A DNA stretch of 64,000 bases from Effusibacillus pohliae DSM 22757 (GTDB lineage Bacteria > Bacillota > Bacilli > Tumebacillales > Effusibacillaceae), in contig NZ_AQXL01000120.1 in the NCBI RefSeq assembly GCF_000376225.1, positions 1 through 64,000 on the forward strand. The letters are read 5' to 3'. The translations under genes were made by a program, and so were the position numbers. Of the stretch, positions 4,191-58,829 are shown in pieces. The number at the start of each line of letters is the position of its first letter. Within the stretch, counting starts at the first letter, position 1. The notes under the pieces are model-generated. The model worked only from the letters and a program-made list of their open reading frames with translations. It was not told the origin of the DNA and ran no database searches.

Positions 4191-4838
4191 TCAGATTTCC
4201 CGGTTGCTTCCGAGTTCCACGAAGATTTTGGTGACGGTTGTTTTGGTAAAGCGCCCGATCACTTCGTACTCCTTCCTGTCCGCATTCAGGACTTTCACCA
4301 CAGGCAGCGAATCGATCGCGTTGTCCACCAGTTTTCTGGCCGCTTCGTAGACGTTGTCCTCGCCTGTGACGGTGATTACGTTCGGCATCCGGGTCATCAC
4401 GAGTGATACGGGTATCGCGTGGGTCTCCTGTTTACCGATCGCCACTTTCAACAGATCCTTGCGGGAAATCACGCCGGCCAGAATCCCATGCTCCTTGACC
4501 ACGGCCAAATTCCCGACATCCTCCACGAACATCGTGACAATCGCGTCATACACGGTCGCGCTCTCCGGGATCACGACCGGCACTGCCTTGTGGTCCTTGA
4601 CCAGCATTTTGCGCAGTTGTTCGCCAAAGATTTCGCTCGATTTTTTTCCCGCATAAAAATATCCGACCCGCGGCCTCGCTTCCAAAAAGCCGGCCATCGT
4701 CAGAATCGCCAAATCAGGGCGCAACGTGGCTCGCGTCAAATTCAGCTTTTCCGCGATCTGCTCGCCGGTGATCGGCCCTTCACGGCGCACGATCTCCAAA
4801 ATCTGCTGCTGTCTTGCTGACAATTCGATGGTCAACAC
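4191..4838 (-). CDS. ccpN: CcpN-type repressor of gluconeogenic genes
   Basis: CcpN represses gluconeogenic genes such as gapB and pckA on glycolytic carbon in Bacillus. The N-terminus holds a helix-turn-helix (EIVRREGPITGEQIAEKLN) followed by the characteristic LTRATLRPDLAILTMAGF and ARPRVGYFY. Residues from about 75 to the end form two CBS domains (PVSLVMTRMPNVITV in the second), which sense nucleotides. The start is uncertain: GTG at 4838 aligns best with relatives (M-x-TIEL), but there is no clean Shine-Dalgarno spacing, and a GTG at 4859 is also open. It leads the ppsR-ppdK operon, so it may control PEP synthesis directly. A candidate CcpN site lies just upstream. Confidence 0.93.
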   Translation of the reverse strand: MLTIELSARQQQILEIVRREGPITGEQIAEKLNLTRATLRPDLAILTMAGFLEARPRVGYFYAGKKSSEIFGEQLRKMLVKDHKAVPVVIPESATVYDAIVTMFVEDVGNLAVVKEHGILAGVISRKDLLKVAIGKQETHAIPVSLVMTRMPNVITVTGEDNVYEAARKLVDNAIDSLPVVKVLNADRKEYEVIGRFTKTTVTKIFVELGSNREI

Positions 4839-31137: not shown

Positions 31138-31485
31138 ACGCCAATCTTTTCTTTATCCTATTGCCAGCCGTTATTCCGCTGTAGAATGCGACAATACTTG
31201 TGTGAGATTCCTTGTGCTATGCGCCTGTTCTGATTCGACAAATCAAACGATCCGCCCTTACGGGACTTGTGACGCTTCCTTGCGGAAGTTTCTCCTCGTC
31301 CATGTTGGGAAGGGGTTGGTTGCAACAGACACACCGCCGACTCCCCTGCCGGCTTTAAATGCCTGCCCCATAGTGCCAAGAGCTGGAGAAGCACCCTTGG
31401 GTATGCACCCAACCAACGTAGCTTTCGCTTAGACTGGTCATTGAGGGATTTTACAAGCCACCACTTGCAGGCGTGGGGTCTAGAC
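31138..31485. mobile_element. Possible IS200/IS605-type end remnant
   Basis: No gene is supported in this 348-bp gap. The stretch at 31440-31485, directly after the floA stop, has the form TTACAAGCCACCACTTGCAG followed by GCGTGGGGTC, reminiscent of the imperfect hairpins at IS200/IS605 ends. No TnpA or TnpB coding sequence is left. Confidence 0.25.
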
Positions 31486-48333: not shown

Positions 48334-49611
48334 TTATTGAACAGGAACGTCGCTCACGCTCTCCTGCTCAATCCGTATTCGGTATCGTTCCATCAAACGG
48401 AGCACTTCGCGCCAATCCGCATACCGCGGATCTTCCAGCATCGTCTTTATTTTCGATAAATAGGCGGGATCCGTGGGAACCGCCCCGTCTTTGTATTTCA
48501 TCAACGTTGCGCCGTCCATCAATATCGGCCGCAGTTGCGGGAAATAATTCGTCTTCAGATATTCAAAGATGCGAATGCCGCCCAAATCGATGTCACCCCA
48601 GTGGCAAACCGACATGTCCGGTTGATGGCGCTGCAAATAACCGGCCAATTTTTCAAGAAAAATTTGCAAGGTACGGTGCGGAAACCCGCCGATATACACG
48701 ACCAACTCCTGCCGGTCGGCCCGCCGCTGCACCCATTGATGGTAACTGGTCAGATTCTCGATCGTCACAACTCGTTCCGCGCGCACCGAGAAGATCTCCA
48801 TCCCCTTGACAGTTTCAGCCGACAGCCCTACTCCGCCGAAAAATCCCTCTGTGGCCACAGTCCGTCCCTGCACCTGACAGTCCAGCGCACCAGAAAGCCA
48901 AACGCTTTTTGGATTGTCGACGATGCCGATGCTGTCAAGATACTCCTCATCCGTCTCCAATTCCGTATCGCCGTATTTTTTGAGCAGTGACAGGAGGCGT
49001 TTCTGGACATGCCGTTCAAAATATTTGCTGTCCCGGAACAACTCCTGGCTGAGCAACCGCTTTGGCTTTCCTGTATTTTCAATCCCGGTCAGCGCGAGCA
49101 GCACTTTCACCAAACCTTCATATCCTTCCGGATCGTCCAAATCCAAGCCGCCGCTGCTGCGTTCCGCCAACTTTTGATCCGCTTCCTGCCACCATCGCTT
49201 CACCCATTCCCAGGGGTGGCATGACAGCGGCTTGAGAATCTCCCGCATTCGCTCCATTTTTGCCAGTTTTGGTTTGATTCCCGCCAGGGAGTACGCTTTT
49301 GGCATCGAATCCGTTTCCAGATAGACTTTCGCAAGCTCAGATCCTTCCTGAAATTTCGCCCACGCCAACGAAACGAGCCCTTGCCGCTCCAGTTCCAACA
49401 GTACATCGTTCATCCACACTCGCTTCCGGAAGTCCATTTCGTCAAAATAATCTTTTTGAAACGGGCTTCCTTTTAATGCGAACTGCGGCCTCTGCGAAGA
49501 CGGCTGCCCGGTTCGGAACGCCTGGCTTCGTTCATATTTTTCCAGAAGGAACGAGAGAACCTGTTTTTGAAATTTTGTTTTAAATTGCTGTTCACCAGGA
49601 GACTGCGCCAT
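48334..49611 (-). CDS. jetD: Wadjet nuclease subunit JetD
   Basis: JetD is the Toprim-type nuclease that cuts circular DNA recognised by the Jet complex. The 425-residue protein has an N-terminal arm (DUF3322-like, WVKRWWQEADQKLAERSSGG) and a C-terminal Toprim fold: VVTIENLTSYHQW carries the catalytic glutamate and CHWGDIDLGGIRIFEYLKTN the DxD metal site. The ATG at 49611 follows GAGG; GTG at 49617 is an alternative. It closes the jetABCD operon, 17 bases after jetC. Confidence 0.93.
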   Translation of the reverse strand: MAQSPGEQQFKTKFQKQVLSFLLEKYERSQAFRTGQPSSQRPQFALKGSPFQKDYFDEMDFRKRVWMNDVLLELERQGLVSLAWAKFQEGSELAKVYLETDSMPKAYSLAGIKPKLAKMERMREILKPLSCHPWEWVKRWWQEADQKLAERSSGGLDLDDPEGYEGLVKVLLALTGIENTGKPKRLLSQELFRDSKYFERHVQKRLLSLLKKYGDTELETDEEYLDSIGIVDNPKSVWLSGALDCQVQGRTVATEGFFGGVGLSAETVKGMEIFSVRAERVVTIENLTSYHQWVQRRADRQELVVYIGGFPHRTLQIFLEKLAGYLQRHQPDMSVCHWGDIDLGGIRIFEYLKTNYFPQLRPILMDGATLMKYKDGAVPTDPAYLSKIKTMLEDPRYADWREVLRLMERYRIRIEQESVSDVPVQ

Positions 49612-49628
49612 GATCACACCTCAGGCAC

Positions 49629-52600
49629 TCAGAATAACGTCTGCTGTTGCAAATCGGGGGATTCCTCAGCCTGACCGCCTGCCGTTGCCGCTTCCTGTTC
49701 GCCGTCCTCCCAGCGGTCAATCAGATCAACAAAGCATTGGTATTCGTGCCTGTTCACGATCAGCGTCGTGGTCACTTCCGGCGCCATATGCTGCATTTTC
49801 TCGTCCGGTACAGCGGCGATCAGCTGCAGGTTCATCTGCTTGATGAGACGCAGGCTGGATTGAATCCGTTGTTCGTCCATTTTGTTGAACGCTTCGTCAA
49901 ACACCACCAGCCGCATCGTTTTGCCGGAACGATACAGGTGATGAAAGGACGCCAAAATCGCGATGTAAAACGGGGTCTGTGTCTCCCCGCCCGATTTTTC
50001 CCGCAAAACCTGCGAGAACCTGTAGCGTGAATCGCGGGTGGTTACAATGATGTCAAAATCGAGATAGCGCCTGTAATCGGTGAATTCCTCCAGATCCCCC
50101 GCTTCCCCCCGCACCAGCAGTTCAAAAAGTTCATGCAGCACGGCGACCCGTTCGTCATCCGGCATCTCAAACAACGAGCCTCTTTCTAGCAGCAGCGGGT
50201 CCATCACGGCATCGTAAAATTTTTTGTACTTTTCGCTGGCCGTCACTTCAAAGTGATACCTGTCCTCGGAAAAAGGAAAGTTTCGAAGCGCGTAATTCAA
50301 CTCGTCGAATTCGCGCCGTGCCATCTGGATGGCCTCCCGCAGCTTGAAAACAAAATGCGACTTGAACTCCTCTTCCGACTCTTTCAGCGCCGTTTCCACC
50401 TTCTTCTGGTATTCCGGAATATCGAGATGTTCAATATCATGCAGAAGTTTTTCATAGACTTCGTTGTCTTCCCCGGCGACAGGTCCGTTGAATGAGTAGA
50501 CAAAGTTGAACTGCTGCCGCAGTTTTTGCAGATCCAGAAATTCCTGGTCGCGGCGGGTCTGGTTCCCTTTCCAGTTGTTTTCCCAGTTCTCGATTTTCTT
50601 CGCCGTGGGAAGATTCTGCCGGGTGGCATCTTCCCAACGCACCAGCGCTCGCTGCTCCGCTTCCGGACCGTGTTCCTCCCGCCATTGCTGCCAGTGCTCT
50701 TCCGCTTCCCGCACTTTCCTCCGTTGAATGAATAACTGTGTATCTTTTTGCATCTGCTCCGTTTCCAATTTTGTTTTCTCTTTTTCCAGCCGGACATACC
50801 GGTTTGCCCAATCTTGTTCCGCTTTCCGCCATTCCTCGTAGGCTGCTTTCAGCCGTTCGACCTCATTGAAGTCATCCGATTGGAGAAGCGTTTCCAATTG
50901 CTCGCGGGCAGTCTCCAACTCGCGGCGGCGTGTATCAAGTTCCGTCGGCAGGGCGAGATGTTCACTGAGAGAAGCATACTGCGACTGCTTCTCGGCGAGC
51001 CGGCTCGTCCAATCGGTCAGCTCCCGGTTGGTCGCGAGCAGACGATCCCGTTGGCTTTTGAGCTCGGTCAGTTCCCGCCGCCTGATTTCCAATTGCCGGA
51101 CGATCGCTTTCGCCCCGATGAAAGGAACTTCATACTGCCGTTTCGGAATCTGTCTGGCGACCAGATTGTGGTACACCATGCAGGTGCGGGTGACGGCTGT
51201 CCGATACTTGCGGAGTTCCTGCTCGTTTTCCGCTTTTATCACTTTGCCCAGCAAATGTTCCAGATGGGCGCGGATGACGGGATGATTGGCCGTCAGCTCT
51301 TCCGCCAGCGAGTTGCGCTCCGCGGTCCCCAGATACTTGCGTTCTTTTTCCGTGTCGACCAGTCCGACACCCTCCAGCTTCCAGGTCCATTTTTCCCGCT
51401 CGTACACCGCCAGCGCTTCCGCAAACACATGCGGTTCCACTAATAAATCGTACCTTTGCGTGTTCAGGTACCCCTCGATCGCATCCCGCCAGGATTCGTC
51501 CCGCACTTCCATTTCCTCGCAAAAAATCCACACTTTCGACCTGTCGCCCAGCCGCTGTTCCAACAGCGATTTCAGTTTATGCACCGAAGGTGGGTAGGTT
51601 CGCTTCTGATTTTCAAGATCTCGAATGATCTCTTCCAGTTCCGCAATTTTCGTTTCAGTTTCTTGCAGTTGATCGGCGGCGCGGGATGCAGCGATCAATG
51701 TGCGCTGATAAAGCGCGGCAAGCAACGCACCTGCTTCCTGGAATGCCTGTCTCACATCCGCTTCCGCCTGCACTATTTGTTCCTGTTCGATTTGGGCGAG
51801 TGCGTAGGCGAGCGTTTCCCGCAACCGCTCCAGATTTTCACGCTCGCGTGCTTCCCACTGCCACAGTTCGTTGCCGGGCCACTGCGACAGGGAATCGAGC
51901 AGTTGCAACTCCTGCCGCAAACGTTTCGCGAATAAAGCGAGCGTACGCCGCAACTGCTCCTGTTCGATTGTCAACTGTGCGATTCGTTCTTCCAATTCTT
52001 TCTTCTGCCGCTCCACTTGATGATTCTGCCAGCGCTGATAGGCCGCTTGCATTTGCTGCTTCGCTTCATCCACCTTGTGAAGCGCCAATTCGATGTCCGC
52101 TTCCATCTGCTGCAGCTTCTGTTGGTAGTGATCCAGATCCTTTTGCAATTGCTCCTGGATTTCCTGTTCCAGGACAAACTTCAGCCTGCGGATCACATAG
52201 TCCTGTTCCTTCACCGTTTCGCGCAGCCTCGCATACTGATTGAACCGTTCCCGGATGGCGTGCAAACTTTCTTTTCGTTTCTGAAGTTCCTCCAGTTCCT
52301 GTCTGTATCGCTCATGGATCTCAAAATTTTGTTTCATCAGGTCAAGCTGCAGTTCCTTTTTGTCCAGGATATAGTCATAGACGAACGCCCGGATGTCCTG
52401 GATCGGCTTGAATGACAAAGCTTTCGTGAAAACGGAAAAAAACCGTTCGTGAACTTGTCCCATGCGAGCCAGCAGCGCTTTCTGGTAGTTCGCTTTGTTG
52501 CGCTCAAAAATCACGCGGCTGCGCATTCCGCCCCCGTAGAAACGCCGGAATTCCTCACGGTTGCGGAGTTGCCCGGACGATTTCAGGAACTCGACTTCTG

Positions 52601-52997
52601 CAAGCCGCCGGTCTGCCAGGATAAAATATTCCTCTTCATAGGACTGGTCCCGAAAAACGTCGATCACCACACCGACCACGAACGATTCCTTTTTCTCGTC
52701 GTCCCGAAATTCGGCGGCTATGTAAGAGGTAAAATCGCCATCCCGCAAGAACGTTCGCTCGTCATTGCCAATCTTGCCCCTTAAATAGTTGATCATCGAG
52801 CGCTTGGCCTCATCATGTGCGGCCGCATTGAAACGGATTTGCCTCTGATCGGCGACAAACAGCACCTGCATCGCGTCGATGATCGTCGATTTGCCGGCCG
52901 CATTTTTTCCCGTGATCAAGGTTTGCTTGCCGAATTCCAGCGTTTCGTCCACAAAATAGTGCCAGTTAATCAACCGCAGTTTCTTCATCCATTTCAT
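49629..52997 (-). CDS. jetC: Wadjet SMC-like ATPase JetC
   Basis: JetC is the MukB/SMC-like motor that extrudes DNA loops in the Wadjet anti-plasmid system. The 1122-residue protein has Walker A ITGKNAAGKSTIIDAMQ near residue 35, a long antiparallel coiled coil rich in Glu, Gln and Arg, the ABC signature EKSGGETQTPFYIA near residue 1000 and Walker B RLVVFDEAFNKMDEQR about 30 residues later. The ATG at 52997 follows GGAGG by eight bases and lies inside the end of jetB; a longer upstream frame overlaps jetB coding sequence and was not used. Confidence 0.94.
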   Translation of the reverse strand: MKWMKKLRLINWHYFVDETLEFGKQTLITGKNAAGKSTIIDAMQVLFVADQRQIRFNAAAHDEAKRSMINYLRGKIGNDERTFLRDGDFTSYIAAEFRDDEKKESFVVGVVIDVFRDQSYEEEYFILADRRLAEVEFLKSSGQLRNREEFRRFYGGGMRSRVIFERNKANYQKALLARMGQVHERFFSVFTKALSFKPIQDIRAFVYDYILDKKELQLDLMKQNFEIHERYRQELEELQKRKESLHAIRERFNQYARLRETVKEQDYVIRRLKFVLEQEIQEQLQKDLDHYQQKLQQMEADIELALHKVDEAKQQMQAAYQRWQNHQVERQKKELEERIAQLTIEQEQLRRTLALFAKRLRQELQLLDSLSQWPGNELWQWEARERENLERLRETLAYALAQIEQEQIVQAEADVRQAFQEAGALLAALYQRTLIAASRAADQLQETETKIAELEEIIRDLENQKRTYPPSVHKLKSLLEQRLGDRSKVWIFCEEMEVRDESWRDAIEGYLNTQRYDLLVEPHVFAEALAVYEREKWTWKLEGVGLVDTEKERKYLGTAERNSLAEELTANHPVIRAHLEHLLGKVIKAENEQELRKYRTAVTRTCMVYHNLVARQIPKRQYEVPFIGAKAIVRQLEIRRRELTELKSQRDRLLATNRELTDWTSRLAEKQSQYASLSEHLALPTELDTRRRELETAREQLETLLQSDDFNEVERLKAAYEEWRKAEQDWANRYVRLEKEKTKLETEQMQKDTQLFIQRRKVREAEEHWQQWREEHGPEAEQRALVRWEDATRQNLPTAKKIENWENNWKGNQTRRDQEFLDLQKLRQQFNFVYSFNGPVAGEDNEVYEKLLHDIEHLDIPEYQKKVETALKESEEEFKSHFVFKLREAIQMARREFDELNYALRNFPFSEDRYHFEVTASEKYKKFYDAVMDPLLLERGSLFEMPDDERVAVLHELFELLVRGEAGDLEEFTDYRRYLDFDIIVTTRDSRYRFSQVLREKSGGETQTPFYIAILASFHHLYRSGKTMRLVVFDEAFNKMDEQRIQSSLRLIKQMNLQLIAAVPDEKMQHMAPEVTTTLIVNRHEYQCFVDLIDRWEDGEQEAATAGGQAEESPDLQQQTLF

Positions 52998-53583
52998 CCA
53001 GCAAACCTCCTTCCTGGCCCGCCTCGTACCGTTCAATTTTCCCGCGGATCGTCTGCAGCTCATCGGTATCCACCACATAGATCCAGGTGTGGAACAGCCG
53101 GAACCGGCATTCGTCCGACCGGATGTCGCTGTCCAGGGGCTCCAGCAGATGGTAACGCGTGCACAACTGGACCATTTTTTCAAGCTGGGTTCGGTTCAGC
53201 CACGGAATCCGGAATGTTTCGTATTTACCGCGGATCTCATGGGTGGTCGTCATCGGAAATTCGCTGAGAGACAAACTCTGCCTTTTTTCCTCGTAAATGA
53301 GACGCAGGGTCAACAGCCAGATGCTTTGGTCCCGATTCAAGCCGCGTCGCAGCCGGCTGTCCGGTGCATGCAGGAAAACACATTCATGCCGTTCATCCAC
53401 GACCAGATCCCAGCCCAGAAACTGAAAAAAACGCTCCAACTCCGCTCGATGCCGGCGAATCGTCAAATACGTTTCCCGTTCTCTCTCTTTGACCAGAAAA
53501 TTGACTGCGATTAAGCGGTTGATCACGGAGCGGACGCGCTCTTGTTCCAGTTCGCTCAATTCGGTTAGGATCAAGGCTGACAC
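52966..53583 (-). CDS. jetB: Wadjet kite-like subunit JetB
   Basis: JetB (DUF4194) is the MukE/kite-like partner of JetC. The 205-residue protein begins ILTELSELEQERVRSVINRL and shows winged-helix-like stretches (IRRHRAELERFFQFLGWDLV, RLNRDQSIWLLTLRLIYEEK-like). The start is ambiguous: GTG at 53583 sits in the Shine-Dalgarno-like GAGGTG, while TTG at 53574 has that site six bases upstream and may be the real start. The first codons belong to a 30-bp repeat array that continues upstream towards jetA. Confidence 0.92.
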   Translation of the reverse strand: MSALILTELSELEQERVRSVINRLIAVNFLVKERERETYLTIRRHRAELERFFQFLGWDLVVDERHECVFLHAPDSRLRRGLNRDQSIWLLTLRLIYEEKRQSLSLSEFPMTTTHEIRGKYETFRIPWLNRTQLEKMVQLCTRYHLLEPLDSDIRSDECRFRLFHTWIYVVDTDELQTIRGKIERYEAGQEGGLLDEMDEETAVD

Positions 53584-53711
53584 CTCTTTTTTCGGATAGA
53601 TTCAACGCGAACGCCGATTTTTTGGGCAGGTTCAATGTTGGTGCCCCATTTTCGGATAGGCTCAATGCTGGCGCCCCTTTTTTCGGATGGGCTCAATGCT
53701 GGCGTCTCCTC
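53560..53711. repeat. 30-bp tandem repeats across the jetA-jetB junction
   Basis: Five imperfect 30-bp units begin near 53560, 53591, 53621, 53651 and 53681. On the minus strand each contains a form of GGCGCCAGCATTGAGCCTA followed by TCCGAAAAA. The leftmost unit is the jetB ribosome site and first codons, and the rightmost reaches into the last codons of jetA. A period of 30 keeps the frame, so an open frame runs through the array encoding LNLSEK/LSLSEN-like repeats. Confidence 0.8.
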
Positions 53712-55141
53712 TTTCGGACAATGCGGTGGTTGGTAAAACGGTATTGTCCGATATGCAAAATACGCCGTTCGCTGGAACGCCTCAACTCAAAAGCGGAAGC
53801 GCCATCCTGTCCGAACAGGTAAACATACGTGAGAAGCAAAAATTCCTCCAGATTCGTCGGTGCCAACTCTTCTAGTTCCATCTCTTGCCGCTCTCCCAGC
53901 CTGTCAAATACATAGCTCTCCACTTTTTTGCGTGTGATCGCATGCCGCATGCGCTCCAGGTTCTCCTGGCGCAATTGTTTTTTCAATTCGTCCGGAATCG
54001 GCTGCACCACATGAACAGCCGGCTGGTGGGGCAATTTTTTGCGGCGAGGAGAAAAAAGAGAGCCTTCATTCAGAACCTCCACTTGTTGCAAGCGGAACAA
54101 TTCCGGCCAAGGACACTCATCCGGCGACATGTTGTTGCACAAACCGGAGAGCCGTTCCAAAACATACGCCAATTGTTGAACCAACCCATGGTGCTGTTGG
54201 CTCAAGTAACGCGCCCGATCATAGGATGAACGCAAATATTGGTTATGTTTGAGATCGATTTGATAAAAAATCTCGTCCAATCCGCTATACGTCTCTTCGA
54301 TCCGGTACAATGCGTCGCGGATGTCCGCCTCCGCCTCCTCCCGGGATTGATAAAACTCGCTTCGCAGCCCGTCTTCGATCGTTTCCTCAAGCAGATCCTT
54401 GTCCAACAGCCAATTCTGCACAGTCTGCAATATCTGGAACCGATAGCGCGACACGTGGTCGGAGGTTTTCAAGCGATGGTAACTCTTGTCAACAATTTGC
54501 GATTTGTATTTTTCAAAGTGGTGATCCAAAACTTCCTGGATGGTCGTTTTTTGCACCATCTGTTCCATGTGATGTTTCATATCATTGTAGAGCGTGATCA
54601 ATTCCTGCTCAAACTGGAGCGTGTACTGCCTGGCCTCCCGCACGGCAAAACAGGGGCGGCGTTTCGCCTCCTGTCCGGTGAGGATTTCATACGTGACAAA
54701 GGCAAACCGCTGGTATTCCACCGTTCTCGCTTCGCAAAGCTCCTGAAACAAAGACAAAATCCGGCTGGTGTAGTGCGGCAGCACAATATACTGTTGGAAC
54801 TGATCCCGTACTTCCAGATAAATCCACTTCAATCTTTCCATCCGGCGAATCAACGCGTTCGCCTGCGCCCGCGACAATTCCTCCAGCGAAATTTGCAAAT
54901 CGCCATGTCCACCGTCAGAACCGACCGATTCCTCTTCAACATCCAGTTGGATCTCCAGCCCCAATTCCCTGTGTGTTTCGATCAGCTCCTGCAACAAGTC
55001 CCGCATGACATCCAAACGGATGCCGAACCGTTCCCTGCGGGACTGTTCAAACAACAGAAGCAAAGCTTCCGCGTACAGATGTTTGTTTGGACCGGTCAAC
55101 AAATAAAAGAAACGCTCCGGAAAAACGTCAAACAGTTTCAT
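53693..55141 (-). CDS. jetA: Wadjet kleisin-like subunit JetA
   Basis: JetA (DUF5716 type) is the kleisin-like subunit bridging the JetC heads. The 482-residue protein starts MKLFDVFPERFFYLLTGPNK, the conserved N-terminus of the family, and is largely helical (RIEETYSGLDEIFYQIDLKH, YLSQQHHGLVQQLAYVLERL) with a winged-helix-like C-terminus (LEELAPTNLEEFLLLTYVYL). Its last codons (RKRRRQH) lie within the repeat array. A GGAGG lies 14 bases before the ATG. It is the first gene of the operon; no strong promoter is visible. Confidence 0.93.
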   Translation of the reverse strand: MKLFDVFPERFFYLLTGPNKHLYAEALLLLFEQSRRERFGIRLDVMRDLLQELIETHRELGLEIQLDVEEESVGSDGGHGDLQISLEELSRAQANALIRRMERLKWIYLEVRDQFQQYIVLPHYTSRILSLFQELCEARTVEYQRFAFVTYEILTGQEAKRRPCFAVREARQYTLQFEQELITLYNDMKHHMEQMVQKTTIQEVLDHHFEKYKSQIVDKSYHRLKTSDHVSRYRFQILQTVQNWLLDKDLLEETIEDGLRSEFYQSREEAEADIRDALYRIEETYSGLDEIFYQIDLKHNQYLRSSYDRARYLSQQHHGLVQQLAYVLERLSGLCNNMSPDECPWPELFRLQQVEVLNEGSLFSPRRKKLPHQPAVHVVQPIPDELKKQLRQENLERMRHAITRKKVESYVFDRLGERQEMELEELAPTNLEEFLLLTYVYLFGQDGASAFELRRSSERRILHIGQYRFTNHRIVRKRRRQH

Positions 55142-55274: not shown

Positions 55275-55455
55275 GTGCTCAACGCTTCTCAGCATCACAG
55301 CAGTTACCAGGCGGGGGACTCTGAAAAAATGATGGATGTTGTCATTGGTGCTCAACGCTTCTCAGCATCACAGCAGTTATCAGCGCCCACAAAGACGATG
55401 CCAGCACAAACCTGTTCAAGTGCTCAACGCTTCTCAGCATCACAGCAGTTATCAG
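55275..55455 (-). CRISPR. Orphan CRISPR mini-array, three repeats, type V-B-like
   Basis: Three 36-bp repeats start at 55275, 55348 and 55420, with unrelated spacers of 37 bp (55311-55347) and 36 bp (55384-55419). The repeats are identical except for one base at position 33 of the first. On the minus strand the repeat ends TGCTGAGAAGCGTTGAGCAC. Recalled Cas12b repeats, such as that of Alicyclobacillus acidoterrestris, share CTGAGAAG and the final GCAC, which sets the crRNA strand as minus and would make the divergent repeat the leader-distal one. No cas gene or tracrRNA is in the window. Confidence 0.8.
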
Positions 55456-55503
55456 TGGATTGTCTGTCTTCCCCAAAAGCCAATCGGTTGTTACATGTTG
55501 TTG

Positions 55504-55541
55504 CCGCTCAGTTTCCTTGTCTGGAAACGAGCGGTTTTTTC
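55504..55541 (+). terminator. Terminator between the CRISPR array and the transposon
   Basis: CCGCTC-A-GTTTCC and GGAAAC-GAGCGG form a stem with a TTGTCT loop, followed by six T on the plus strand. No plus-strand gene precedes it, so it may be a relic of a lost gene. Confidence 0.65.
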
Positions 55542-55640
55542 TTGCCAAGAATGACGGAGATGAGAGACAATGAATGACATATGCAGCCGGAGGCTGTAAC
55601 GCCAATCACTGTCTAAGGAGCGGCGAAAGCAAAAAATAAA

Positions 55641-55679
55641 AAGGAAGACGGTTAAGGATTAGCAGCCCCCGTCTTCCTT
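55641..55679 (-). terminator. Inverted repeat at the left of the transposon
   Basis: AAGGAAGACGG and its exact complement are separated by 17 bases. On the minus strand TTTATTTTTT follows, which makes a good terminator that could stop minus-strand transcripts leaving the element. Confidence 0.6.
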
Positions 55680-55709
55680 CGCACCAAGCTTTCGCTCACA
55701 ACAATTGTA

Positions 55710-56525
55710 GTGGAAAAGAAGACAAAAGTAAAGCCCTTTATCGTCATCGAAGAGGCGGTAAAGGTGTCGCATCCGTCCGACTGTATCCATCGTGATCCGA
55801 TGTGGCGCCACGGCGGCCTGATTCGAGACCAAAGCGATACCATTCGTATACGCAGGGGAGGTTACCGCCACCCCCCTTGCAGCCTGCCGCTGTCTGCCTG
55901 TTCGCCGACCGCGCAACAGGCGCTACCGCCTTGGCATTCGGACTTGGAAGCGTATCTCAGGCTGGTCGGCACGCACGGCCTTCCGGAAGAAGATCGCCCC
56001 AAACGCTGTCCGGCAGGGTGCCCCTGCGAGCGGATGCCTCATCGGCATAGCCATTACTGGCGCGCGGTTTTTACGTCTTCCTCATGCCAACGAATCTGCA
56101 TCTTCCGTTTTCGTTGCCCCGGTTGTGGCTATGTTCACTCCGTCATCCCCGCTTTCCTCGAACCGTACCAGCGTCTGGCGCTAGATCTGCAAGAAGATCT
56201 GGTGGACGCCGTCCAGCAAGGGGGCACCGTCGAGGCGGTAGCGGAGGCGTCCCAATCCCTGCCGGGCGGCGGTTTTGGCGAGCGTACCATCGCAAGTCTC
56301 GTCCGGGCATGGAACGAACGGCTGACCCAGTTGGAGTCCGGTTTATGGACCTGGCTGCTCGCGCGGGTTCCTCATTTGACGCTCTCACGCTCCCCATCGC
56401 TGTGGAGTACGCTACAGAGCGCATGGCAAGCGGTTCAAGAGCGAATCCCGGCCTTTCGAAACATCCGATTTCTTCACGGCTTGAATCGTCTCTGCTTCTC
56501 CCTGGCGGTGACGGTACACGGCTAA
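55710..56525 (+). CDS. Transposon-borne zinc-binding protein (DUF6431-like)
   Basis: The 271-residue protein has a cysteine/histidine cluster (CPAGCPCERMPHRHSHYW, then CIFRFRCPGCGY) typical of the DUF6431 zinc ribbon found in transposons of Bacillota. The C-terminal half has a helix-turn-helix-like stretch (GTVEAVAEASQSLPGGGFGE). It may bind element ends or help choose targets. The GTG at 55710 is the furthest start; later in-frame starts are possible. Confidence 0.6.
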   Translation: MEKKTKVKPFIVIEEAVKVSHPSDCIHRDPMWRHGGLIRDQSDTIRIRRGGYRHPPCSLPLSACSPTAQQALPPWHSDLEAYLRLVGTHGLPEEDRPKRCPAGCPCERMPHRHSHYWRAVFTSSSCQRICIFRFRCPGCGYVHSVIPAFLEPYQRLALDLQEDLVDAVQQGGTVEAVAEASQSLPGGGFGERTIASLVRAWNERLTQLESGLWTWLLARVPHLTLSRSPSLWSTLQSAWQAVQERIPAFRNIRFLHGLNRLCFSLAVTVHG

Positions 56526-56628
56526 AATACCACAGAGCCTGTCCTGTTGATTTCACTCGCGGCGTCTCACAATGGAGCCAAGGGGATACACGTCCCCATT
56601 TCATCTCCCAAAGGAGGCATTTACCGCG

Positions 56629-58011
56629 ATGGATTCATCCATGCAGGAACAAATGGCCGCTTTTCGCTACAGCCTCATCGCACCCGTAGTCAGCCGGCAG
56701 ACGCCGCTGGCACCCGGGGAACTGAAGGCTTATTTGGCGCAGGCGGCCGAAAAGGTGTACCACATTCCCGGCAGCACCAAACGGACCGTGAGCGTGCGAA
56801 CGCTCGAACGCTGGCTCAGCCAGTACCGAAAAGGCGAGTGGGACGGCCTAAAACCGCGAGGCCGCACCCGCAAAACGAATCTGAAGATCCCGCCGGCGGT
56901 GTTGCAGGAGGCGATTCGCCTGCGAAAGCAGCGCCCCGAGCGAAGTGTCGAGCAACTGATCTTCATGCTGGAAGAGGGCGGTGTAGCCGAAGCCGGGACG
57001 CTTGCCGCAAGCACCCTCTCCCGTCATCTGCGAAAGGCGGGTGCGAGCCGCAAAGACGTGCTTGCCGCCGAGGCCGACAAGGGATTTCGGCGATTCGAAG
57101 CCGAGGAGCCGCATCTGTGCTGGCAGTTCGACTTTCAGCACACGCTCTACCTGCCCGATCCGAAAGATCCGAAGAAACGAAAGAAAGCGATCCTGTTCGC
57201 CATCCTCGACGATTTCAGCCGGTACATCGTCCATGCCGAGTTCTACTGGGACGAGAAACTGCCGCGGATGGAGGACGGCCTGAAGAAGGCGATTTTGAAG
57301 CATGGCATTCCAGAGCAATTCTATTGCGATCATGGTGCGGCGTTCTCCTCCCCACATCTGGTGCGCATCTGCGGCAAGCTGGGGATCCGACTTTCCCATT
57401 CTGCCGTGAGACGGCCTCAGGGACGCGGCAAGATCGAACGCTGGTTCCGTTTCGTCGATACCAGCTTTAAACCGGAAGCCTACGCACAGATCGAACAGGG
57501 ACGGCTCACGACACTCGCCGAACTGAACGCCGCGCTAGCCGCATGGCTCGACGGCTACTACCATACCCGGGAGCACGGTTCCACCAAACAGTCCCCTCGC
57601 GACCGGCTTGCCGCAAGGGCCCGGCCGATGCGACGCAAGACGCTGGCGGAACTGACCGAAATCTTTCTCTGGGAAGAGACACGCACGGTGGATAAGACCG
57701 GCTGTGTCAGCCTGAATGGCAACACGTATGAAGTCGACCTGGAACTATGCAAAAAACGTGTACAGTTGCGCTATGACCCGTTCGATCTCACAACGATGCA
57801 AGTCTGGTACGACGGCGTCAGGTACGCCGATGCAACGGTTGTTGATCTATCCCGTCCGTATGATCGTCGGGTGACGCCTGAACCGACGGCGCTTACCGTG
57901 GAGCCGGACGGGCAAGTGGCCTTCCTGGACCTGGCCGAGCAGAAACGGCAAGCCCAGTGGACAAACGAAGAAATCTCTTATGCCAAAGCGAAAGGCGATG
58001 ATGCGAAATGA
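56629..58011 (+). CDS. DDE transposase (rve/Mu-type)
   Basis: The 460-residue protein has N-terminal helix-turn-helix segments (VSVRTLERWLSQYRKGEWDG, AASTLSRHLRKAGAS), an rve catalytic core with WQFDFQHTLYLPD, EQFYCDHGAAFSSPH and GRGKIERWFRF supplying the D, D and E residues, and a Mu-C-like beta domain. The ATG at 56629 follows AAAGGAGG. Its stop overlaps the ATG of the ATPase gene. The frame is intact, so it may be active, though its ATPase partner is broken. Confidence 0.88.
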   Translation: MDSSMQEQMAAFRYSLIAPVVSRQTPLAPGELKAYLAQAAEKVYHIPGSTKRTVSVRTLERWLSQYRKGEWDGLKPRGRTRKTNLKIPPAVLQEAIRLRKQRPERSVEQLIFMLEEGGVAEAGTLAASTLSRHLRKAGASRKDVLAAEADKGFRRFEAEEPHLCWQFDFQHTLYLPDPKDPKKRKKAILFAILDDFSRYIVHAEFYWDEKLPRMEDGLKKAILKHGIPEQFYCDHGAAFSSPHLVRICGKLGIRLSHSAVRRPQGRGKIERWFRFVDTSFKPEAYAQIEQGRLTTLAELNAALAAWLDGYYHTREHGSTKQSPRDRLAARARPMRRKTLAELTEIFLWEETRTVDKTGCVSLNGNTYEVDLELCKKRVQLRYDPFDLTTMQVWYDGVRYADATVVDLSRPYDRRVTPEPTALTVEPDGQVAFLDLAEQKRQAQWTNEEISYAKAKGDDAK

Positions 58012-58829
58012 ATGCCACCCTGCTGCAGAGCCCGGCCCCTAAACCGTTCAGCAAGGAACTGGATCCCGCACTTTGCTATGAATCCCGTGGAACCGCGAAG
58101 CGTCTGCCCGTCTGGATCTGATGATTCAGCATCGGACGCTGGGCGTTCTCACCGGTGAAATGGGCGGCGGCAAGTCGACCTTAATCCGGCGGCTGTTCGC
58201 CTCCCTTGATCCCATGGCCTATCTGCCGATCTACCTGTGCTATGCGTCACTCAAGCCACGAGAATTCTATGGAGGCCTGCTGGAGGCGGTCGGCGTAGAA
58301 CCGGTCTACACCGTCTCCAGGGCGCGTAAACTCTGGCAGGAAGTCGTCCGCAGCCGCTCCGCACCTGGTGAGCGTACCATGGTCGTCGTCATCGATGAGG
58401 CGCACGAGATGAGTGAAGCGATGCTGCTTGAATTACGGCTTCGCGCTCAATTACAACATCGATTCCGCCTCGTTGTTTCCCTTGATTCTCGTCGGCCAGC
58501 CGGAGCTTCGCAAGCTGCTCCGGCTGAAGAAGTACGAAGCCACCGTCCAGCGCATTGGCATGCAGTACCACTTGAGCGGCATGAACAAGGAGGAAACGAG
58601 CGCCTATATTCGGCACCACATGACCGTAAGCCGGACAGAGAAGCCCGTGTTTGCCGAAAGCGCGCTCAGCCGAATCTTTGCCGCCAGCCAGGGGCTTCCG
58701 CGCGTGGTGAACCAGATCTGCACGCAGATTCTGCTCGACGCCGCCGCCCGGAATCTGGAGGTCATTGAAGAAGCCGATGTCGTTCGTGTGCTTGCCGATA
58801 TGGACCGGCAGCGCGGCGTTACGAGTTGA
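58008..58829 (+). pseudogene. ExeA/TnsC-like AAA ATPase with two compensating frameshifts
   Basis: The ATG at 58008 overlaps the transposase stop and opens PKPFSKELDPALCYES, the usual ExeA-like start, but stops at 58119. Between about 58085 and 58098 the family sequence moves to another frame: ASARLDLMIQHRTLGVLTGE, with Walker A GEMGGGKSTL and Walker B VVVIDEAHEMSEAMLLELR. At about 58440 one extra base moves it back to the first frame (FALNYNIDSASLFPLILVGQ, LPRVVNQICTQILLDAAARN) up to 58829. The N-terminus and C-terminus share a frame. No slippery heptamer is seen at either site. Confidence 0.75.

Follow-up and report, generated by a model that had tools for sequence, protein, structure and literature searches.

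A three-repeat array next to a Wadjet operon

The window, by which we mean the whole 64,000-nucleotide stretch of DNA that was analyzed, contains three 36-bp repeats at positions 55275-55310, 55348-55383, and 55420-55455 (spacing of 73 and 72 bp). They are separated by two different spacers of 37 bp (55311-55347) and 36 bp (55384-55419), and all of these positions are exactly those given in the original prediction. Three 36-mers so nearly alike at CRISPR spacing are far above chance expectation. The crRNA sense of this mini-array is the minus strand, on which the middle repeat reads CTGATAACTGCTGTGATGCTGAGAAGCGTTGAGCAC. The copy at the leader-side end of the array (55420-55455) has the same sequence, and the distal copy (55275-55310) differs by a single T-to-C change (ACCAG instead of ATCAG on the plus strand); with one base change among three copies, the repeats are indeed nearly perfect. 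The variant copy sits at the left end of the array, as expected of the trailer end if the leader lies to the right.

Genome-wide, the 36-bp repeat occurs only in these three copies (3.36-Mb draft, 135 contigs, 99.85% complete). A 31-nt repeat search of the host genome, allowing ≤3 mismatches, likewise returned the array itself only, with no tracrRNA anti-repeat of that length, and the exact repeat was absent from viral contigs. Neither spacer has a convincing match: as the original prediction had suggested, both were compared with phage and plasmid sequences, and also with viral collections and their own genome, and viral contigs were scanned four times with 20-mers; only chance-level matches were obtained.

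The first repeat lies 133 bp upstream of the start of jetA at 55141, close to the ∼130 bp originally estimated. Four Wadjet genes are found here on the minus strand: jetA (53693-55141; JetA, PF18982, E value of 4.6e-113), jetB (52966-53583), jetC (49629-53183), and jetD (48334-49617). PADLOC recognizes all four, and Pfam names jetA and jetD. The operon is a neighbor of the array, an unrelated anti-plasmid defense that stands outside the CRISPR system. We found no such array within 1.5 kb on either side of the jetA homologues taken from 26 further genomes of this class, and the vicinity of Wadjet and array is therefore not a conserved association. In another genome, a 130-aa jetA fragment (L121, G008:C60) adjoins CRISPR-like repeats of a different type (CTTTCAGTCCCCTGTTAC).

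On the leader side, transposon genes occupy positions 55710 to 58829 of the plus strand. They encode a DUF6431 protein (55710-56525), an rve/Mu-C transposase (56572-58011), and an AAA ATPase apparently split over two frames (58121-58768 and 58413-58829). A transposon had been predicted to start within about 100 bp on this side; its presence was borne out, and its first open reading frame (ORF), that of the DUF6431 protein, begins ∼255 bp from the last repeat. An inverted-repeat search and a plasmid comparison located no transposon ends. Elsewhere in the window, positions 31284 to 31485 of the minus strand match HEARO (the IscB omega-RNA; 88.6 bits), and the ORF list has no obvious IscB directly downstream.

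Repeat family and predicted hairpin

Judged by sequence, the repeat belongs to a widespread family, GTGATGCYGARARGCGTTGAGCAC, whose arrays reach ∼100 repeats and are found in Brevibacillus, Alicyclobacillus, Myxococcus, Thiocapsa, and Planctomycetes. Over a core of 24 nt, 21 to 23 positions are the same as in 19 family consensus repeats. When 399 Bacilli genomes were searched with this core (≤3 mismatches), arrays were found in 5 further genomes, which contain 74 (G126), 19 (G136), 40 (G271), 7 (G333), and 104 (G342) copies. Cmx1 was present in four of the five (G126, G136, G271, and G342), always on the array-bearing contig. In G333, whose genome is 99% complete, the seven family repeats lie at a contig end (L052, G333:C12) without Cmx1; this array may be another orphan or may be served by a type III-B system.

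No exact 19-mer of the repeat was found in GTDB contigs, which were then searched with a degenerate version of the core. This search yielded 48 stretches, including sequences from Brevibacillus invocatus, Alicyclobacillus cellulosilyticus, Myxococcus, Thiocapsa, Comamonas, and many Planctomycetes. Their repeats have GTGCTCAACGCYTYTCRGCATCAC in common, followed by 12 variable bases, with a spacing of mostly 70 to 77 bp. Adjacent to the B. invocatus array (L048) is an operon that encodes Cmx6, Cas3, Cas8a1/Cmx1, DevR, DevS, Cas4-Cas1, and Cas2, for which the NCBIfam assignments are type I-MYXAN or compatible with it, and the Cas4-Cas1 protein matches TIGR03983 (cas1_MYXAN) with an E value of 4.6e-143. 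Spacer lengths in the family have a mode of 35 to 37 bp (n = 778 family spacers), which the 36- and 37-bp spacers of the mini-array fit; they also fall within the 34 to 38 bp expected of type I-MYXAN arrays.

As read from these relatives, the repeat family is that of type I-MYXAN, and the type assignment is corrected from class 2 (V-B) to class 1 (I-MYXAN). Myxan has been placed inside type I-B (Nat. Commun. 2024, PMC11096372). In myxobacteria, the repeats of the MxI-B and III-B systems are both 36 bp long, end in -TTGAGCAC, are nearly alike, and are probably used by both systems (PMC11237760); the mini-array repeat has the same end. The core of the dev-type I-MYXAN repeat is conserved across Bacillota, Planctomycetes, and Myxococcota.

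The predicted minus-strand fold of the repeat is a 6-bp stem capped by a GAGA loop, with a GAGCAC tail; a consensus built from 20 family repeats forms this stem as well. Where the family has GCC-GAAA-GGC, Brevibacillus has GCT-GAAA-AGC and the mini-array GCT-GAGA-AGC, so that the GNRA loop is kept and a compensatory C-G to U-A change is common to the mini-array and Brevibacillus. The octamer CTGAGAAG is part of this predicted GAGA-capped, Cas6-type stem-loop, which accounts for the string that had suggested Cas12b repeats in the original prediction. There, the octamer had been described as followed by GCAC on the minus strand; both elements are present, but they are not directly joined, six bases (CTGAGAAGCGTTGAGCAC) lying between them.

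In an intact system, each repeat of a minus-strand transcript would form a 6-bp stem closed by a GNRA loop. By analogy with the family, Cas6/Cmx6 would cut at the 3' base of the hairpin and produce crRNAs with the 8-nt 5' handle TTGAGCAC, which, to go by the repeat, a Cas8/Cmx1-DevR-DevS Cascade and Cas3 would then use. Processing by Cas6 followed by the use of crRNAs by Cascade and Cas3 is a known pathway.

Leader region and cas genes of the host genome

Where enough leader sequence is available, related cas-linked arrays carry the motif RTGCTTGAA at position −56 from the first repeat (in Bacillota and in a Gemmataceae array) or −55 (in Myxococcus), and those of Bacillota have motif partners near −156 and −250. 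RTGCTTGAA-like motifs were seen at −55/−56 in the leaders of L047, L048, L050, L051, L053, L077, L060, L083, and L091; in several of these the motif recurs near −156, and its inverted form, TTCAAG, lies near −250. The motif looks like a regulatory or integration site of the leader, and its position at about −56 could help to type stray arrays. It is not universal, as some family arrays in other phyla also lack it. RTGCTTGAA was absent from the 320 bp examined on the leader side of the mini-array, and the flank itself (55456-55710, minus strand) has neither the motif nor the partners near −156 and −250. The missing family leader points to the loss or the capture of a fragment, in which the neighboring transposon may have had a part. 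We found no convincing promoter on the array strand, the one weak minus-strand match (9/12) being ∼250 bp away at 55732-55704.

Searches of the host genome found no Cmx1 (positive controls gave matches), no Cmx6, even at an E value of 10, and no MYXAN-type Cas1; a complete type I-MYXAN system (Cmx1/Cas8, Cmx6, and MYXAN-type Cas1) was thus not found, in a draft assembly (135 contigs, 99.85% complete) that may have missed a short stretch of cas sequence. For cas1, cas12b, cmx1, and cmx6, each of which was sought across the whole genome, the original prediction that the window contains no cas gene holds, and the array is, as proposed, an orphan beside Wadjet.

The host genome has two cas1 genes, one in a type II-C locus on contig C54 (L011; cas9-cas1-cas2) and one in a different type I-B locus on contig C82 (L010; cas6-cas8b-cas7-cas5-cas3-cas4-cas1-cas2, with 48 repeats). 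The repeats of the I-B and II-C loci, GGATTATCTGAACGTAGTGGGATTTAAAG and GTCATAGTTCCCCTGAAATTATCGCTGTGGTATAAT, are unrelated to that of the mini-array. The latter is a clear case of an orphan array that has no leader and persists in a genome with two other, unrelated CRISPR-Cas systems. On C54, an anti-repeat-like stretch, TCATAGTAACCCTGAGATCACTGCTGTGGTATGATC, lies near positions 4770 to 4805, upstream of cas9, and is probably part of a tracrRNA. Upstream of the I-B cas6 on C82 (505-605), AGTGCTCAACGC is the sole other copy in the genome of the conserved end of the MYXAN repeat; it adjoins a different hairpin, and a GTGATGCC-TTCG-GGCG hairpin lies 65 bp off. A degenerate MYXAN repeat pair in this region was rejected as not significant: its score was reached in 2.8% of simulations, yet in 7 of 79 window chunks.

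Origin and state of the mini-array

We propose, with a probability of roughly 0.78, that the mini-array derives, as a stranded fragment, from a type I-MYXAN (subtype I-B, "dev-type") array, its cas operon lost or the fragment horizontally acquired. The array would have been left over after the loss of the cas operon and leader, or else an array piece would have come in with defense-island DNA. Since neither the cognate Cas6 nor the cognate Cas8 was found, MYXAN-type cas1 is absent, and the leader is missing, the mini-array is most likely inactive, a silent array that would neither grow nor interfere. The near-perfect repeats tell against a stranded fragment, unless decay is recent or masked by the small size of the array.

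Such repeats would also suit an active array on which a type III-B (Cmr) module encoded at another locus of the genome acts in trans, a reading that we regard as unlikely. Myxococcus III-B systems use repeats with the same -TTGAGCAC end (PMC11237760), and G333 likewise has such an array without Cmx1, but the mini-array has only two spacers, it lacks the MYXAN leader as well as a good promoter on its strand, and the genome has no Cmx6-type processing enzyme. Less probable still, the leaderless array might be transcribed nonetheless, perhaps into the same-strand Wadjet operon, and then be used in trans (by III-B or another Cas6) or couple crRNA and Wadjet expression. We give slightly less credence again to processing by the host's own I-B Cas6 or use by its II-C Cas9; the genome does have both systems, but their repeats differ from that of the mini-array in handle and structure.

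That the array is of type V-B and has lost its Cas12b effector, as originally assigned, is very improbable. Its octamer and GCAC end, likened in that prediction to Cas12b repeats, have to be set against the placement of the octamer in a Cas6-type hairpin and against the closest repeats (≤3 mismatches in 24 nt), which adjoin type I-MYXAN cas operons, a match to another CRISPR type of the kind that the original prediction had itself named as refuting it. The search for cas12b that it had called for gave no match in the host genome (NF033949), and none was above the cut-off among 14 genomes of the host's order. Just as improbable is a dispersed repeat or a regulatory repeat of the Wadjet promoter, a reading suggested by the short distance to jetA, upstream of it and on its strand, and already refuted, since the repeat has no copies elsewhere in the genome, none occurs at the jetA homologues taken from the 26 other genomes, and in relatives it builds long arrays that have diverse spacers and are accompanied by cas genes.

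As a stranded type I-MYXAN fragment, the mini-array is an orphan array of an already known class 1 subtype and fairly ordinary in kind. With type I-MYXAN (I-B, Cas8a1/Cmx1; the MxI-B/dev operon of Myxococcus xanthus), it shares the 36-bp repeat, the GTGATGCYGARARGCGTTGAGCAC core, the GNRA-loop hairpin, the -TTGAGCAC end, and spacers of ∼36 bp; it differs in having no cognate cas genes found in the genome, no leader motif, and three repeats only. Its likeness to the Myxococcus type III-B system with B-type repeats lies in repeat length and the terminal -TTGAGCAC (PMC11237760). The likeness to type V-B arrays is confined to the CTGAGAAG string and GCAC end named in the original prediction, in a host without Cas12b and with every typable near match of the repeat being type I. 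Isolated (orphan) arrays that have no cas genes beside them, and whose repeat is unlike those of the genome's other CRISPR systems, are known, as in Streptococcus pyogenes (PMC5294841), and the mini-array resembles them in both respects.
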